This document shows, piece after piece, positions 4,311 to 23,709 of a stretch of DNA of 35,497 nucleotides. Below the pieces are notes generated by a model. The model did not search any database and was not told the DNA's origin. It saw nothing but the letters and a program-made list of their open reading frames with translations. The stretch covers positions 1-35,497 of the forward strand of contig CAMOGP010000002.1 in assembly GCA_946614175.1 (NCBI GenBank), read 5' to 3'. Every line of letters begins with the position of its first letter. Positions within the stretch are counted from its first letter, which is position 1. The stretch is from an uncultured Prevotella sp. Its GTDB lineage: Bacteria; Bacteroidota; Bacteroidia; Bacteroidales; Bacteroidaceae. Made by a program: the position numbers and the translations under genes.

Positions 4311-6236
4311 CTACACAGGAATTGCTATGACGAAACGAGCACCGGAAGTGTAGTTCTCGTCAAGCATCAAATCACCACCCATCATCTTAGAAAATTGCTT
4401 GGAGACAAACAGACCAAGTCCAAGACCTTCTGAGAAGCTATTGGCCTTGATAAACTGATTGAATATCTGACTGCGATGGGCGGCAGGAACACCAGGTCCA
4501 TTATCTTCTACAACGAAATGAACAAATCCGTTCACCTTCTGTACACGCACAATTATCAATGCCTCGGCCTCATGACCAGGAATGACACCATATTTCTTGG
4601 CGTTATAAAGTAACTCAGTGAGGGCTTTCAGAAAATAATCCTTATGAACATTGACAAACAAATCGTCAGCCACCTCTGTCCTTACCTGCAAAGCGACTTC
4701 AGGTTTTGACGCATGCTGATTGAATATGTTCACACTCTCATAGACAATACCATTACAAGACACACGATCTTCACAATCCACGACCTTACCAACATCCAAC
4801 GAGGATGCTGCTGTGAGCATATGCACCATACGCGAAATGGATGTTGCATTATGTTTCATCGTATCTGTGATTGTCACCATCTCCTCGTGAGGTATCACTG
4901 TATAGTCATCACGCAACACCTGTACGAACCCCATGATGATGTTCAGCGGTGTACGTATCTGATGAAGCACATTTTGCAAGAAGACAACCTGACGCTGGGC
5001 GGCCTCCCCTGCCTGCTGATTGGCATTGGCCAATTCCGTATTTCTGCGCTCTGTCTCTGCATTCACACGCTCCAAATGACTGATATGCTTTGCCAAGGAC
5101 TTCTGCATGGCAGAGAAGCTATTTTGCAAACGTCCAATAACATCCACGCGTCTGCTGTTTGGCAAGGGTACATCAAAATGGCCATCTGCAATATGATGTG
5201 TCTGAGAAGCCAGGCGATTCAAAGGATTGATAAACGAGTTCACGATGGCACGCAGGAAATACATCAGGAGAAACAATCCGATGACGAGCAATGGCACAAG
5301 GACATACAACAGTTTATCGTATCGGGAGAACATGTCGCTCTCAGAACAGATCAGGGCGATACTCCAAGGCGTATGTTCTAAAGGCTTATAGAATACCAGA
5401 CAATCATCGCCATCGACATTCACCTCCATGTAGCCCGTGTTTCTTGCCACCATCTCATGGCCTAAAGCTATCACGTCTGAGTGTTCTCGTGGATCTAAGT
5501 CATCGAAAATGGTTTTCCTAACCAGTTTCGTAGTGTCCGTATGAACAAAATAATGACCATCCTGCCCCAACATCATACAATAAGAATGCTCATAGGGCAC
5601 CTCTTCTGAAATAGCCGCCGTCAGACGCTTCAACGAAAGGTCGGTAGACATAATACCGATGGTATTACCTTCAAAATCCTTAATGGGCACACTATACGAG
5701 GAGATCCATTCTGACGTAGAGGAAGAACCGCCATCATTATCATCATAAGGATCAGTCCATACCGGTTCGTCAGCCTCATAAGCTTTCTTATACCACACCT
5801 TATTATAATAGTCATAAGGTTTCTCGCGTACAGTAATCACGCTGTCACCCTTGCGATAGGAGAATGCAGAGAAATAGTGACCATCCTGAGAGAAGAAGTC
5901 GGGCTCCATCGTAATAGAGCAACTACTGACACCAGGATTCAGCTGCACAACACGTTGCGTATAGGATAACAGGGAGTCTGGTGTCAGATTCTCGTCAATT
6001 TGCCACGTCATATTGCTGGTCACCGTCTGAATCTCATTCAGGAAACCGCCCACACGCAAAGAAGTATTTGCCAGCATGCGATCTGCCCGCTCAACGGCTT
6101 CCTGACGGAGCATTTCCCTAGACCACTTAAACAGAAGCCCCAGGGACACGACAAAGACCACCACGACAAAGGGGATAATGCCGATACCTAATCTCGCAGC
6201 CAGGGAATTATGTACTTTACGTATTGGTATTGTCAT
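4311..6236 (-). CDS. Cache-HAMP sensor histidine kinase
   Basis: A 641-residue membrane kinase. Order: membrane segment at ~18-37; extracytoplasmic double-Cache (PDC) region at ~40-305 (WTDPYDDN, SYSVPIKDFEGNTIGIMSTDLSL); second membrane segment at ~309-330; HAMP at ~331-385; coiled coil; dimerisation domain with the H-box FLQNVLHQIRTPLN (phospho-acceptor H425); then an ATPase domain. N545 lies in the N-box (LLYNAKKYG), followed by the G1 motif VEDNGPGVP and G2 motif GLGLGL. All key residues are present, so it should autophosphorylate. Its ATG overlaps the end of the upstream paralogue by 20 bp, which implies co-translation from one mRNA. No response regulator gene is adjacent. Cache domains bind small ligands such as organic acids or amino acids. 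The ligand here is unknown, and a link to the xylan genes is not shown. Confidence 0.92.
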   Translation of the reverse strand: MTIPIRKVHNSLAARLGIGIIPFVVVVFVVSLGLLFKWSREMLRQEAVERADRMLANTSLRVGGFLNEIQTVTSNMTWQIDENLTPDSLLSYTQRVVQLNPGVSSCSITMEPDFFSQDGHYFSAFSYRKGDSVITVREKPYDYYNKVWYKKAYEADEPVWTDPYDDNDGGSSSTSEWISSYSVPIKDFEGNTIGIMSTDLSLKRLTAAISEEVPYEHSYCMMLGQDGHYFVHTDTTKLVRKTIFDDLDPREHSDVIALGHEMVARNTGYMEVNVDGDDCLVFYKPLEHTPWSIALICSESDMFSRYDKLLYVLVPLLVIGLFLLMYFLRAIVNSFINPLNRLASQTHHIADGHFDVPLPNSRRVDVIGRLQNSFSAMQKSLAKHISHLERVNAETERRNTELANANQQAGEAAQRQVVFLQNVLHQIRTPLNIIMGFVQVLRDDYTVIPHEEMVTITDTMKHNATSISRMVHMLTAASSLDVGKVVDCEDRVSCNGIVYESVNIFNQHASKPEVALQVRTEVADDLFVNVHKDYFLKALTELLYNAKKYGVIPGHEAEALIIVRVQKVNGFVHFVVEDNGPGVPAAHRSQIFNQFIKANSFSEGLGLGLFVSKQFSKMMGGDLMLDENYTSGARFVIAIPV

Positions 6237-7686
6237 CAGGATTCACAGTTTGATTATTCAAGGAAACTTCAATGGTCTTGTCAAGCAACCGAGTGACAGA
6301 ATGTGTGTGTTCAGCCATTTCGTTGACCATCTCGACCACTTCATCGTGACTCAAGTGGCTATGCTCCTTTGAGATTGTATCTACCAAAGTATTGATTCTG
6401 ATCACAGGTTGCACCATTTGACCAGTCATATTATGTACAAAAACAGATTTCAACCTATCGGCTTCACGTACCTTCTCACGTGCAACACGCAGCGCATCAT
6501 TCTGATGGTCAAGAACAGTTTTCCGCTGTTCGATGGTAGCCAGATAGCGACCTAACGAACGCTGCATAGCACGAAAACTCTTCTGCAGAGCTCCCACCTC
6601 ATCCTTACGGTAACTATCAGCAATGGGCTTATCAAAAAAACCTGCAGACAAACGCTGAGCAGAGAGGTCGAGCATTCGTAGCGGGCGCAACTGGAAATGG
6701 ATGTAATGCGAACAGTACAACAGCAAGACCAGCATGCCGCCAGCCATAATAAGAATCATTCGTTTCAGCAGGCGGTCGTATGTATCAAAGACATCCGACT
6801 TCAAACTGACGATGTTGGCTGTCCACCCCGTGTTTCTATAGGGCTTATAGAATACATAGCAGGGAGCGCCATATAAGGTCAGGGACATATGGCCAGTATT
6901 ACCCTTCAACATCACATCAGTCAACTGCTGCAGATTTTGATCAGGGTATTCCTCCAACTGTTCATAGATGGTACGCGCCTGCAAATAGGACGAATCGGGA
7001 TGGATGATAAACGTACCACTCTGATTCATCAAAGAACAAAATGTACGCGGGAAGGGGCGCGCAGCTTCAATCGTATGCGACAGCCACTCCAAGGAAATGG
7101 CCGACACAAAGACACCGATAACACGCTCATGTTGCCTGATGGGGATGCTATAACCCATAATCGGATATCCACCACGCAGGTTTTCTATCGTAGGGTCGCT
7201 CCACTGGGCCTCACCGGTAGAATATGGCAAGGAATACCATTCCTGTTCTGTATAAGGACGGTTTCCAAAATGATCAGACATAGAGATAGAGTCGGTGCCA
7301 CGATAAGAACAGAATAAAGTCTGGCAATCTTTATCCTCACAGAAAGAAGGGTCTAACGCAATAGCACATCCTACAATACTGGGATTGCTATCCAACATCT
7401 TACGGGTGAGGTATTGCAGGGTTGCAGGCTCATTAACATGATGCTCTACATTCCAGTGTATGTTTATGGAAGCCTTTTCTACAGCACGCAAACGATTATC
7501 AATTTGCTGTATCATACCGTCCAAGGCTACCTCAGACTTTGCCAAAGCCTCTTTCTTCACAGCTGTACGGGCATAATAGAACATAACCAAAAGAGCCGCC
7601 ATAAAGAATATGGCCACGAATCCCACAACACAAAGACTTAATCTTGCTGACAGGGATTTGCGTATAGCTAAGAGCAGGTCTTTCAT
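6217..7686 (-). CDS. Cache-HAMP receptor with degenerate, His-less dimerisation domain
   Basis: A 489-residue paralogue of the next gene, with the same plan: membrane segment (~16-38), double-Cache region (~40-305; WSDPTIENLRGG, GYSIPIRQHERVIGVFVSAISLE), second membrane segment (~309-327), HAMP (~330-385) and coiled coil. The helical hairpin that follows aligns column by column with the partner's H-box: FVHNMTGQMVQP against FLQNVLHQIRTP. The phospho-acceptor His is Gly422 here, and the RTP that follows His is lost. The protein ends after this hairpin with no ATPase domain. The stop overlaps the partner's start by 20 bp and no disrupted kinase remnant follows, so this looks like a designed receptor-only protein rather than a recent frameshift. 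It may modulate the partner kinase, for example as a heterodimer; that is inference. Confidence 0.88.
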   Translation of the reverse strand: MKDLLLAIRKSLSARLSLCVVGFVAIFFMAALLVMFYYARTAVKKEALAKSEVALDGMIQQIDNRLRAVEKASINIHWNVEHHVNEPATLQYLTRKMLDSNPSIVGCAIALDPSFCEDKDCQTLFCSYRGTDSISMSDHFGNRPYTEQEWYSLPYSTGEAQWSDPTIENLRGGYPIMGYSIPIRQHERVIGVFVSAISLEWLSHTIEAARPFPRTFCSLMNQSGTFIIHPDSSYLQARTIYEQLEEYPDQNLQQLTDVMLKGNTGHMSLTLYGAPCYVFYKPYRNTGWTANIVSLKSDVFDTYDRLLKRMILIMAGGMLVLLLYCSHYIHFQLRPLRMLDLSAQRLSAGFFDKPIADSYRKDEVGALQKSFRAMQRSLGRYLATIEQRKTVLDHQNDALRVAREKVREADRLKSVFVHNMTGQMVQPVIRINTLVDTISKEHSHLSHDEVVEMVNEMAEHTHSVTRLLDKTIEVSLNNQTVNPDDNTNT

Positions 7687-18909: not shown

Positions 18910-21900
18910 ATGCGTCGACTATTATCAATTGTTATCTTACTTCATACAGCCCTTATTCTGGCTTTTGGTCAGACCGGGGTTTTCTTTTCCTCAGAGCGAT
19001 TCTCCAGTGCGCTCATCAACGATTTGTGCCAGGATAAATACGGCTATATGTGGATAGCCACCGACTATGGACTAAACCGTTTCGACGGCTATCATTTTAC
19101 AGAGTATCTACACCAACATAACGACTCTACAACGATCAGTAGCAGCACGGTATGCACCCTGTTCTGTGACAAGGATGGCGAACTATGGGTAGGCACCAAT
19201 AAGGGACTTGACCGCTTCGACTATGCCACGGGAACATTTATCCACTATCCTTTCGCCAGAGGTCGCAAGCCACGTGTCACTAAGATGACACATCTGAGCG
19301 ATGGGAGAATGATTATAGCTACCAGTGGCTACCACGGTCTTTATTGCATGACCAACGAGATGGCAGATGACTATACAGAAGGCGACCTCGACATGCTGTT
19401 TGTGAACAGCATCACAGAAGATGATTCTGGACGTATCTGGCAATGCAGTTTCAGTGACCAGATATCCATGAAAGATGCCTATGGTATTCACAAGATGCAT
19501 ACTACAAAAGGATTTGTTGTTGACTTTGTCTATCACGACGGAGACTTTCTGATTGTCTGTATGCATGGTCTACATGGTTTTAGCAATGGACAGCTCACCA
19601 ATCCGAACTACGATATGAGTGCGATGGAGCCTAGTGCCATCATTCGCTGCGTGTATACCGACAGCAAGGGCAACACCTATATTGGCACCCGTGGCGATGG
19701 ACTCTATTGCATCCCTGCCAACAGTCGAAAATTGGAACGTGTACCCGCCATAGCCTCAGGTCTGAATTTGCGTACTACGAAAATATGGGCTATAACAGAA
19801 GACCGTCAGCATAATATCTGGCTAGGCTGTCAGTCAAAGGGACTTGTGATGCTACCAGCCAAAAGTCCGCAATTCTCATCTTGGAGTTTCGCCACCCAAG
19901 GCATAGACCTTGCCTCTACCATTACGGCTGTTTGTGAAGGTGACAATGGATATATTTGGTGTTCTGTTCAGGGTAACGGCATCTATGGTTTTGATGCAGA
20001 TGGACATTTGAAAGCCCATCCAACAGCTCCCGACAAGGCTGAGTGTATTTTCCGTGACCGCAGAGGCAACTACTGGGTGGGTACCGATGATGCCCTCTAT
20101 GCCTACGACCCACTGACTGGCGTATCCACCAGAAAAGCAACCATCGACTGCGACAAATTTAATTCCATCACCGACGACGCACATGGGCGACTGTATATCT
20201 CCACGTTCTCTCGTGGACTATGTGTTTACGATACAAATACCGGTGACCTACGTCAGTATAGTCACAAGAGTAGTGGTCTGTGCAACGACTGGATCATGGG
20301 AGTAACCTCTGACAAGTCGGGAAATATCTGGTTGGCCACAGCATCAGGTGTGTCTTGTTATAATCCTAAGACAGAAAACTTTGATCGTCCTCATCTCTTT
20401 GATGTCATGTGTTTCAATGTGCTACAAACACGTAGCGGTGCTACTTATGTAGGAACAGAGCAAGGCATCTATCGACTGGAAGGCGAGAAACGGCCAGAGT
20501 TGGTAGCTTTGGGACAACTCTCTGTAGGCTATATGATTGAGGATGAACAAGGCTTCATATGGTGCTCCACCTCAAAGGGTATCTGGCAATATGACCCCGC
20601 CACAGGCAAAACCATCGGACATGTCTATGGCAATGGTCTTTCTGCTAAGGAATATATCACAAGCGTAGGACTACTTACCAGCGACAATAAGATTTGTTAT
20701 GCCAACTATAATGGTCTAACCGTTTTTCGCTCTAAAGACGTCATTGGGTGTCACACAACGCTCAACGAACTCTATCTGACAGCCTTCCGTCTGCCAGACA
20801 GAATGATTTACACGCAGGATGATGATCATTACGAAGTGTCTTACCTCGACAATGCCATCACGCTGGAATTCTCACTACTCGACTATAACGCGCCAGAGAA
20901 CATCATCTTTGAGTACCGTATCAACCAGTCGGCATGGCTGCAGAATCCTGAAGGCGAGAACACCATTCTGTTAAACCATCTCCAGCCAGGAACCTACAAC
21001 ATAGAAGTCAGGGCCATGTCTGGGACCACCTACTCACAGACCAAGACCATCACACTCACGGTGACCCCCCCATGGTATCGCTCCAAATGGGCCTACGCTA
21101 TCTACCTCTTTGCATTCATCGGCATCATTACCGGCATAGGTTTCAGCTATCGCCGACGCGCCCATCGTATGTTGGCAGAAGAGAAGATGCGTTTTCTCAT
21201 CAATGCCACCCATGATATTCGTTCACCACTTACAATTATCATGGGAGCCATCGGAAAACTGAAAGGCTCAAAGATGGCAGAACTGAAGTCTGAGAAAGAT
21301 TTTCAGTCCTTTAATTCCTCGATTCTTCAACCATCCATTGAAACGATCGATCGCAATGCCCAACGTCTACTACAGTTAGTCAATCAGATTCTTGACCAGC
21401 GACGTCTGGATAAAAAACAGATGCAGTTACATTGTCAGGAGACCAACATGGTTGAATTTATCAGCGGCGTATGCAAACTATATCAGTTCAGTGCAGACCA
21501 GCGCAATATTTCATTCACCTTCGAGCACGAGCGAGACCATGTCTTAGCATGGATTGACCGTATCAATTTTGACAAGGTCATCTCCAATCTACTCTCAAAT
21601 GCATTCAAATACACCTATGATAATGGTGAGGTAAAAGTGGTGCTTCATGAGACAGAGAAGGACATTGAACTGTCTGTCATCGACAATGGCATGGGCTTTA
21701 AGAATGAAGATCCCAGTCGTTTTTTTGACCGTTTCTATCAAGGAAAGAACTCTGCTAACCTGGGCATACAAGGCACGGGCATCGGTCTAAATCTCTGCCG
21801 CGCCATCACCGAGATGCATGGCGGCGAGATTAAGGCTCTACGCCGTGAAGACAAACAAGGTGCCTGTTTCGTGATAACTATTCCCAAAGGCAACAAGCAC

Positions 21901-22746
21901 CTGCGCCCTGAACAGATTGTGACAGATAATCCTGTGCGTGAGGTTCTCTCATCAGGAACCAAAGGAAAGAAATCTTTCCGTCAATTCCGCATTCTTATTG
22001 TTGATGATGAACCTGAAATAGCCCGTTACATCATCTCAGAATTAGGCGACCGCTATAAGTTCGACCATGCCATCAACGGCAAGGAAGCCCTGAAGATGCT
22101 GCTTACCGATGAATACGACCTGGTTATCAGCGACATGATGATGCCTGAGATGGATGGTCTCACCCTACTTAAGCATATCAAGGATAATACGAATATCTCG
22201 CAGATACCCGTCATTATGCTGACATCAAAAGCAGAGGTGGAGTATAAGTTGGAAGGACTCAGAGGAGGTGCCGATGCCTATATTGCCAAACCATTCGACA
22301 TGGAGGAGCTACACATACAGATAGACAACCTCATTGACAACGTACGTCGTCTGAAGGGTAAGTTCAGTGGAGCTCTGAAACAGGAAGACCGCGTTGAACA
22401 GGTAGAAGTAAAAGGCAACGACGATGCCCTCATGGAACGTATCATGCGCTCCGTCAATGCCAATTTCTCTGATCCAGACTATAACGTAGACACCATGGCC
22501 AACGACGTAGGTATCAGTCGTGCGCAACTGCATCGTAAGATGAAAGAAATCACAGGTGTATCTACAGGTAAGTTCTTGCGCAATCTACGCATGGAACAAG
22601 CTGCCCGCCTGCTTCGTGAAGGTAAGATTAACGTATCCCAGATTGCCGATCACGTAGGTTATGCCGATCAGGCCCATTTCTCTACCGCCTTCAAGACCCA
22701 TTTCGGACAGTCTCCCTCGGAATACGCAGAAACACACAAGGAGTGA
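18910..22746 (+). CDS. Hybrid two-component system regulator (HTCS)
   Basis: A 1278-residue single-chain sensor and regulator. Order: signal peptide (~1-20); periplasmic beta-propeller repeats (~25-635) with many GxxWxGT/GLxxYD-type blades (GYMWIATDYGLNRFD, ELWVGTNKGLDRFD, NIWLGCQSKGL, NYWVGTDDALYAYD); Y_Y_Y domain (~640-720); one membrane segment (~730-747); HisKA with H768 in NATHDIRSPL; ATPase domain (NAFKYT, DNGMGF, GTGIGLNL); receiver with the DDE motif and phospho-acceptor D1075 in VISDMMMPEMDG; and an AraC-type HTH (~1175-1278). HTCS proteins bind oligosaccharides in the periplasm and activate polysaccharide utilisation genes. Context points to a xylan-derived oligosaccharide; that is inference. 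The gene starts 10 bp after GH115, so it is probably co-transcribed with it, giving positive feedback. The stop abuts the convergent gene's stop. Confidence 0.96.
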   Translation: MRRLLSIVILLHTALILAFGQTGVFFSSERFSSALINDLCQDKYGYMWIATDYGLNRFDGYHFTEYLHQHNDSTTISSSTVCTLFCDKDGELWVGTNKGLDRFDYATGTFIHYPFARGRKPRVTKMTHLSDGRMIIATSGYHGLYCMTNEMADDYTEGDLDMLFVNSITEDDSGRIWQCSFSDQISMKDAYGIHKMHTTKGFVVDFVYHDGDFLIVCMHGLHGFSNGQLTNPNYDMSAMEPSAIIRCVYTDSKGNTYIGTRGDGLYCIPANSRKLERVPAIASGLNLRTTKIWAITEDRQHNIWLGCQSKGLVMLPAKSPQFSSWSFATQGIDLASTITAVCEGDNGYIWCSVQGNGIYGFDADGHLKAHPTAPDKAECIFRDRRGNYWVGTDDALYAYDPLTGVSTRKATIDCDKFNSITDDAHGRLYISTFSRGLCVYDTNTGDLRQYSHKSSGLCNDWIMGVTSDKSGNIWLATASGVSCYNPKTENFDRPHLFDVMCFNVLQTRSGATYVGTEQGIYRLEGEKRPELVALGQLSVGYMIEDEQGFIWCSTSKGIWQYDPATGKTIGHVYGNGLSAKEYITSVGLLTSDNKICYANYNGLTVFRSKDVIGCHTTLNELYLTAFRLPDRMIYTQDDDHYEVSYLDNAITLEFSLLDYNAPENIIFEYRINQSAWLQNPEGENTILLNHLQPGTYNIEVRAMSGTTYSQTKTITLTVTPPWYRSKWAYAIYLFAFIGIITGIGFSYRRRAHRMLAEEKMRFLINATHDIRSPLTIIMGAIGKLKGSKMAELKSEKDFQSFNSSILQPSIETIDRNAQRLLQLVNQILDQRRLDKKQMQLHCQETNMVEFISGVCKLYQFSADQRNISFTFEHERDHVLAWIDRINFDKVISNLLSNAFKYTYDNGEVKVVLHETEKDIELSVIDNGMGFKNEDPSRFFDRFYQGKNSANLGIQGTGIGLNLCRAITEMHGGEIKALRREDKQGACFVITIPKGNKHLRPEQIVTDNPVREVLSSGTKGKKSFRQFRILIVDDEPEIARYIISELGDRYKFDHAINGKEALKMLLTDEYDLVISDMMMPEMDGLTLLKHIKDNTNISQIPVIMLTSKAEVEYKLEGLRGGADAYIAKPFDMEELHIQIDNLIDNVRRLKGKFSGALKQEDRVEQVEVKGNDDALMERIMRSVNANFSDPDYNVDTMANDVGISRAQLHRKMKEITGVSTGKFLRNLRMEQAARLLREGKINVSQIADHVGYADQAHFSTAFKTHFGQSPSEYAETHKE

Positions 22747-23709
22747 TCAGAGTTTCACGCTGGAAATATCAATCAGATTATTCACAATAGCATAGATCGT
22801 AAGTCCTGCAGCGCTATGAATCTGCAGCTTACGGGCTATGTTGCGACGATGTGTAATCACGGTATTCACCGATATGCATAGATGGTCAGCAATTTCCTTA
22901 TTCTGCATACCCTGCACCAATGCGACGATGACATCCTTCTCACGGTCTGACAACAGTTCCTGACTCTCGCCAACGCCAGCCTTCGTCACCATATCCGAGA
23001 TATTGCGCGTCACGTCGTTCTGCTTCACGATTTTCTCCAGACGACGAATGGCAGGCACGAAGATACTGTCTTCCACCATGGCGTGCTGACGAAGCCATAC
23101 CTCGTTCTCGTAGATATCATGGAGAGTGGCAGTCAGCTGGTTGTTATGCAGTCCATCCTGTGGCAGATACTTAATAATGAGGAGCTTCAACTCGCGCAAC
23201 TTCTTATCCGTTGCCCCGTGATGCTTGGAAAAAGTATCCACATTATAGTCATTGATGGGTTGTTTGTCTATCAGCGACTGCACATAGGGGAAGAGCGTCT
23301 TCTGCTCATACTTCATGTGACGGCGTATCTCCTGTGCATATTCGTCATAGAAACGCAGGATCAGCATACCCAGCGAGTCTTTCTCATCGAGCGACTCCTG
23401 CAGTTCCCTGCGGATGTAGGGCAACTGGAAATCAAGGAAATAGGCATGAGAAGCTTCCAGATAATGCAACAGCGTAGGGACTGACAACTGCTCATCGTTC
23501 TCGAAGCTTTCATACCCATTGGCCGTAAAGTTCACTACAGCCAGGAACGTATAGGTATCCACTCCGTTGTCCTCGCATGTCTCCCTGACGGTCTTATCAC
23601 CGAATCCAAGATTGATTCCAAAACTACCGAGCGACTGCAGCAAATCATAGTTATCGCGAATCAGCGATATCATCTTGTCGTCAGCCTCATACATTTTCAG
23701 ATTTCTCAT
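22747..23709 (-). CDS. Hemerythrin-like / LuxR-type HTH transcriptional regulator
   Basis: A 320-residue cytoplasmic protein. Residues ~10-60 resemble the short N-terminal domain of RIC/ScdA iron-cluster repair proteins (DNYDLLQSLGSFGINLGFGDKTVRETC in the track), but the usual Cys pair (FCCGG) is LGFGD here. Residues ~80-220 are a hemerythrin-like four-helix bundle with the ligand pattern H88, H131-MKY-E135, H163/H164, H197 and H209-AMV-E213, fit to hold a di-iron centre. Residues ~252-312 are a LuxR/GerE HTH (LSDREKDVIVALVQGMQNKEIADHLCISVNTV). This suggests a regulator responding to oxygen, NO or iron redox state. Target genes are unknown. It is divergent from the second GH115 gene, and its stop touches the HTCS stop. 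The domain calls are good; the signal is inference. Confidence 0.87.
   Translation of the reverse strand: MRNLKMYEADDKMISLIRDNYDLLQSLGSFGINLGFGDKTVRETCEDNGVDTYTFLAVVNFTANGYESFENDEQLSVPTLLHYLEASHAYFLDFQLPYIRRELQESLDEKDSLGMLILRFYDEYAQEIRRHMKYEQKTLFPYVQSLIDKQPINDYNVDTFSKHHGATDKKLRELKLLIIKYLPQDGLHNNQLTATLHDIYENEVWLRQHAMVEDSIFVPAIRRLEKIVKQNDVTRNISDMVTKAGVGESQELLSDREKDVIVALVQGMQNKEIADHLCISVNTVITHRRNIARKLQIHSAAGLTIYAIVNNLIDISSVKL

Follow-up and report, generated by a model that had tools for sequence, protein, structure and literature searches.

Organization of the A-B Locus

The window, i.e., the whole stretch of 35,497 nucleotides analyzed here, comes from an uncultured Prevotella sp. and carries on its reverse strand two overlapping genes for paralogous membrane sensors, hereafter A and B. 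The features of the two genes, with the evidence on which each is based, are the following.

6217..7686, reverse strand: gene A, kinase-less receptor of 489 residues with two transmembrane segments, dCache, HAMP and a DHp-like hairpin, then stop (open reading frame; Pfam; AlphaFold2 model; PDB fold matches)
6820..7530, reverse strand: periplasmic dCache sensor of A (Pfam; AlphaFold2 model; PDB fold matches)
6553..6699, reverse strand: HAMP of A, residues 330-378 (Pfam)
6247..6489, reverse strand: hairpin of A, residues about 400-480 (homology to the B hairpin; AlphaFold2 model)
6421..6423, reverse strand, read 6423-6421: codon of Gly422 of A, at the phospho-acceptor position (alignment of A with B)
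6217..6236, reverse strand: 20-bp overlap between the stop region of A and the start of B (open reading frames)
4311..6236, reverse strand: gene B, intact dCache-HAMP-HisKA-HATPase sensor histidine kinase of 641 residues (open reading frame; Pfam; boxes conserved in the family)
5355..6080, reverse strand: periplasmic dCache sensor of B (Pfam)
5094..5246, reverse strand: HAMP of B, residues 331-381 (Pfam)
4791..5024, reverse strand: DHp hairpin of B, residues about 405-482 (Pfam HisKA 419-481)
4962..4964, reverse strand, read 4964-4962: codon of His425 of B, the phospho-acceptor (alignment of A with B)
4317..4628, reverse strand: HATPase_c of B, residues 537-640 (Pfam)

A and B align with 27% identity (E=5e-67) over residues 4-468 of A, that is through the sensor, the HAMP domain and the hairpin. 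Pfam finds MCP-like_PDC_1, dCache_1 and HAMP in both proteins, and HisKA and HATPase_c in B only; the dCache_1 matches score 54.8 bits in A and 61.8 bits in B, above the Pfam gathering score of 45, and both lie between two transmembrane helices. In the alignment, G422 of A stands opposite H425 of B, and A reads QMVQP at the site where B reads HQIRTP. No Pfam match to HisKA was obtained in A at E<=1, nor was an HATPase_c domain with its N, G1 and G2 boxes found by Pfam in A, which ends 67 residues past the acceptor site. With no HisKA match, Gly422 at the site and no HATPase_c, A is not a class I (HisKA) histidine kinase, and from these missing residues and the missing domain we infer that it is inactive as a kinase. 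B, instead, has the His-x-x-R-T-P motif of this class and intact HATPase_c boxes (N box ELLYNAKKYG, G1 DNGPG, G2 GLGLG).

The AlphaFold2 model of A, built with 51 sequences (mean pLDDT 83), shows a transmembrane helix, the dCache domain, a second transmembrane helix, HAMP and a hairpin whose helices span residues 363-440 and 447-480, followed by a short tail of low confidence; the sensor part of the model matches dCache structures in the PDB. Downstream of A there is no kinase remnant, the other reading frames being full of stops, and there is no room for one, since the stop of A sits inside the start of B. Immediately beside the pair lie a DUF349 gene and a CotH gene. Each element of the sequence-only reading of this locus was thus confirmed: the common Cache-HAMP-hairpin plan, Gly422 against H425, the lack of RTP and of an ATPase domain in A, the overlap of exactly 20 bp (A 7686-6217, B 6236-4311), the clean end of A and the absence of an adjacent response regulator.

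Distribution and Pairing of A and B

That reading had proposed a search for the same pair in other genomes. We searched 150 genomes of the same genus, to which wide regions, 80 named loci and further genomes were then added, and collected 206 distinct (non-identical) A-B pairs, the carriers being rumen Prevotella/Xylanibacter and members of three sister genera. The presence of the pair in the window is more than chance, given its 206 occurrences in related genomes. In the 150 genomes, dozens of loci show a frame of about 500 residues directly followed by one of about 640 residues. The two genes overlap or lie within 30 bp of each other in 153 of the 158 pairs whose spacing was measured, the commonest overlaps being 4 bp (62/158) and 8 bp (46/158).

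In the wide loci, a recognized A lies directly upstream of 144 of 146 B-like kinases, and at the remaining two an A frame is present that shares several hundred bases with B. Complete genomes contain two or three pairs each, with every A directly followed by a B, and some draft genomes contain at least four. Outside the family, no convincing A-like protein was found in 295 genomes of the order. A-B pairing is obligate, and the two proteins are co-inherited paralogous sensors, one of which is catalytically inactive by sequence. The carriers with names, which were found with a closer subset of the A alignment and therefore represent mainly Asn-type A proteins, are mostly rumen Prevotella assemblies, together with cultured strains of Xylanibacter ruminicola, among them Ga6B6 and D31d, of X. 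brevis, such as ATCC 19188, and of Prevotella.

Age and Constraint of A

In a tree restricted to the dCache-HAMP part, calculated from 62 diverse pairs and outgroups, all A proteins form one clade (SH-aLRT 95); B requires two label changes, and the B' proteins of the kinase-less pairs described below form a separate clade. Orthologues of the window pair, with 97, 91, 73 and 68% identity, lie between the same DUF349 and CotH genes, and all of them end at the same place: the full-length kinase at the first gene of close relatives, which the sequence-only reading had named as the observation that would count against it, was not found. The dN/dS of the A hairpin is 0.025-0.109, and that of B 0.024-0.035; the A hairpin is therefore under strong purifying selection, similar to B. 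That A is a kinase gene from a tandem duplication that was truncated recently or is in decay could be suspected from the paralogy of the two genes and from the missing catalytic end of A, yet the single origin of all A proteins, the strong purifying selection and the same end point in 206 pairs rule this explanation out for practical purposes, and we find it hardly credible.

In the set of 206 pairs, no A protein was assigned an ATPase domain. At the acceptor site A has Asn in 107 cases, Asp in 76 (together 183/206) and other residues in 23, whereas B has His in 191/206. The Arg at +3 and the phosphatase Thr at +4 are lost in A, and both positions are highly variable; Met at +2, Pro at +5 and the hydrophobic Ile434 are retained. 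This pattern indicates that the A hairpin is maintained as a structural, not as a catalytic, element.

A might still take part in phosphotransfer as a phosphorelay or alternative acceptor, either through its Asp/Asn site or through a conserved His (H418) one turn earlier. In fact, His occupies position -4 in 156/206 A proteins, as compared to Gln in 182/206 B proteins, and the pair at locus L099, with His in A and Gln in a B whose ATPase boxes are intact, would need phosphorylation in trans. However, Asn, which is commoner than Asp in A, cannot take a phosphate as His does, the His at -4 is absent from 50/206 A proteins, and A has neither RTP nor the Thr at +4. We consider a role of A as acceptor quite improbable.

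Variant Pairs

Several loci depart from the common arrangement. At L094:5967-8455, and also at L097, L100-L106 and L112 of the same genus, there is a second type of pair, which includes no kinase: A' is a protein of about 220-340 residues with a short sensor, HAMP and a hairpin lacking the His, and B' (about 480-550 residues) is a dCache-HAMP-HisKA protein that has kept His and RTP intact and stops directly past the hairpin, with no ATPase domain. The A' and B' genes often overlap by 4 bp, and no conserved ATPase gene was found near these pairs.

In eight pairs of genus g14 (L282, L283, L287-L291, L293), the His of B is replaced by Leu or Ile, while RTPLN and all ATPase boxes are intact; the partner A reads IADKM or similar, and most of these loci are syntenic, beside a DUF4435 gene. 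In these g14 pairs the output must be something other than phosphorylation at that His. B has Arg in place of His at L088, L091, L092 and L245, and at L088, L091 and L092 the clusters encode, in addition, a kinase of about 560 residues (TPR-HATPase where scanned) and proteins made of dCache alone or of dCache and HAMP alone. The pair at L099:5088-8323 appears to be a swap of the acceptor between A and B, and is a single example.

Genomic Context, Ligand and Output Regulator

Among the frequent neighbor gene families scanned with Pfam, no response regulator was found beside A-B pairs, and in the window the nearest receiver that was found belongs to a hybrid sensor at 18910-22746. A single-domain receiver (G000:C90:3683-4006, locus L394) and a soluble kinase-receiver hybrid of about 430 residues (G000:C14, L392) are rarely seen outside that clade of the genus which carries the pair. 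Orthologues of the L394 receiver, which is encoded in the genome of the window itself, occur (at >=58% identity) in 28/30 pair carriers of the genus as compared to 1/22 non-carriers, a profile that looks like a clade effect. As a general partner this receiver was rejected, being absent from the pair-carrying genomes of g14, g19 and g21.

At 16 loci one gene family lies directly upstream of A, and the member that was scanned is an NMT1/THI5-like periplasmic binding protein. A gene of this kind also precedes a related SpoIIE sensor, at L113:5954-10793, where genes for an NMT1/THI5-like protein, a dCache-HAMP-SpoIIE-HATPase_c_2 protein, a STAS protein and a RelA/SpoT-domain protein stand in a row, a possible partner-switching module with the same sensor family. 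These positions suggest a binding protein as ligand carrier in some members of the A-B family; the window pair has no such gene. It adjoins a xylan-type cluster (GH10, GH95, GH115, feruloyl esterase, hybrid sensor), a position that is suggestive only. Between the hybrid two-component sensor and GH115 genes, at 22747-23709 on the reverse strand, a protein with a hemerythrin HHE domain and a LuxR-type HTH is encoded.

Sensing of AI-2 was also considered. CahR-type AI-2 receptors follow a five-residue rule that includes R126 of PctA, in an R-x-W-Y motif (PMC9540692). This candidate was rejected, in that the R126 position, placed by the WY motif and the one of the five residues that was scored, is Gln in A and Lys in B, in the window and in most relatives.

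Covariation between the Hairpins of A and B

The hairpins of the 206 pairs (effective number about 152) were analyzed by DCA with both mean-field and pseudolikelihood (plm) methods. The top inter-protein couplings were A425-B475, A421-B469, A419-B473, A420-B420 and A462-B462 (B numbering). Many of the top A-B couplings fall at i+j of about 890-904, which sets a1 against a2' in the register of the within-hairpin contacts, and others at i close to j, i.e., a1-a1' and a2-a2'. When columns were permuted within helices, the excess in the antiparallel band had p=5e-5 with both methods, the position of this band having been chosen after the first coupling lists were viewed and being in agreement with the within-protein couplings; the parallel band was weaker (p=4e-4 with mean field, 9e-3 with plm). 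The antiparallel excess was 0.230 with the true pairing, as compared to 0.043 ± 0.042 with random re-pairing, and about half of the signal (0.124 ± 0.047) was retained when partners were swapped between near relatives. A pilot analysis of 158 pairs gave the same direction. The signal is modest and, as the pairs are inherited together, part of it may be phylogenetic. The couplings nevertheless provide modest but geometry-specific evidence that suggests a mixed four-helix bundle.

This geometry bears on the explanation that A and B each homodimerize and that A affects B indirectly, by higher-order packing or as a scaffold that binds a ligand or sequesters a regulator. Chemoreceptors and kinases can assemble into higher-order arrays, so that such packing is possible in general, and A might mainly dock the NMT1/THI5-like binding protein encoded upstream of it at 16 loci. 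The top couplings, however, are on core positions of the hairpin, in the a1-a2' and a1-a1'/a2-a2' register, and not on a separate surface; indirect action of this type is in our opinion unlikely, although less so than a role of A as acceptor.

Proposed Mechanism

The heterodimer idea of the sequence-only reading gains support from the obligate pairing, from the single clade of A and from the covariation of the hairpins in a mixed-bundle geometry. In our reading of the sequences, A and B are probably subunits of one sensor, a heterodimer in which the kinase-less co-receptor A sets the kinase/phosphatase state of B. The contact between the two proteins would run through HAMP and a DHp four-helix bundle of mixed composition. 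A, which has no phospho-acceptor, ATPase domain or phosphatase Thr, would read a periplasmic ligand with its dCache domain and would retain its hairpin only as a half-bundle for dimerization and signal transmission, while B would supply the sole His and the sole ATPase of the unit. Because A has neither of these, B would have to autophosphorylate in cis when paired with A. The ligand state of A, whatever the sign of its effect, together with B's own sensor would set the balance between kinase and phosphatase in B, and the output of B would pass to a response regulator encoded elsewhere. A and B might form homodimers too.

The split of sensing and catalysis that had been proposed for this locus holds for A, which is sensor-only and adjoins a complete sensor kinase, but not for B, which retains its own complete dCache sensor. 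Since B does so, the A-B unit may integrate two ligands. A broader proposal, to which we give even weight for and against, is that the pairs make up a whole family of histidine kinases that are obligately asymmetric, each unit an A-B heterodimer with two sensors, one His and one ATPase, acting in cis. In rumen Prevotella the scheme would have multiplied and been taken apart further, by way of kinase-less A'-B' pairs and His-less B, into a modular network of split sensors.

Comparison with Known Systems

The usual picture of a histidine kinase is a symmetric homodimer, and the heterodimers known are few and isolated. A receptor/kinase pair that is spread through a whole clade in several copies, and in which one half alone is active, would offer hundreds of natural sequences in which the control by ligand from one protomer to the other can be studied, and in which it can be asked whether autophosphorylation in cis is enough. 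The pair suggests, too, that output-less dCache proteins, a class of some size in rumen bacteria, may be kinase subunits and not decayed genes.

The closest sensor relatives outside the A-B family are the dCache-HAMP-SpoIIE phosphatases of Bacteroidales: in 295 genomes of the order, homologous sensors outside the family end mostly in SpoIIE phosphatases. These have the same dCache-HAMP part, followed by a PP2C end, often with HATPase_c_2, whereas in A and B a DHp hairpin follows. Among the known sensor partnerships, RetS of Pseudomonas aeruginosa is a complete hybrid kinase and its gene lies apart from gacS, whereas A ends after the hairpin and is always co-encoded with B. DivL of Caulobacter, a single-copy cell-cycle protein, has kept an ATPase-like domain, whereas A has no ATPase domain and is present in 2-4 copies per genome.

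The likeness to RetS-GacS lies in the control of one sensor kinase by another through hetero-oligomerization, as described in PMC4866733 and PMC5992135 and as proposed here for A and B. DivL, according to a review (PMC9491836), stimulates the real kinase CckA, its own acceptor site and ATPase being dispensable. FasB and FasC of group A Streptococcus are, like A and B, co-encoded paralogous sensors; they form heterodimers and not homodimers, and in one subunit the ATPase domain can be dispensed with (PMC12675982). The essential His, however, is in FasC, the ATPase-dispensable subunit, whereas A has lost the His too, and the Fas sensors have six transmembrane segments in place of dCache. In Corynebacterium glutamicum, ChrS truncated within its CA domain promotes signalling of its paralogue HrrS, and native ChrS and HrrS heterodimerize, although interaction of the truncated form was not seen in two-hybrid assays (PMC9491836). 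The ChrS truncation is a laboratory-evolved frameshift, whereas A is an ancient family.

No description of the A-B pair in Bacteroidota was found in the open-licence literature searched. From RetS-GacS, DivL-CckA, FasB-FasC and ChrS-HrrS it is clear that heterodimers of sensor kinases can form and that an active kinase can be under the control of an inactive partner, but none of the four is a clade-wide family of co-encoded partners without CA domain and without His. Kinase heterodimers with an inactive partner being already known, what distinguishes the A-B pair is that it is obligate, operon-encoded and amplified.
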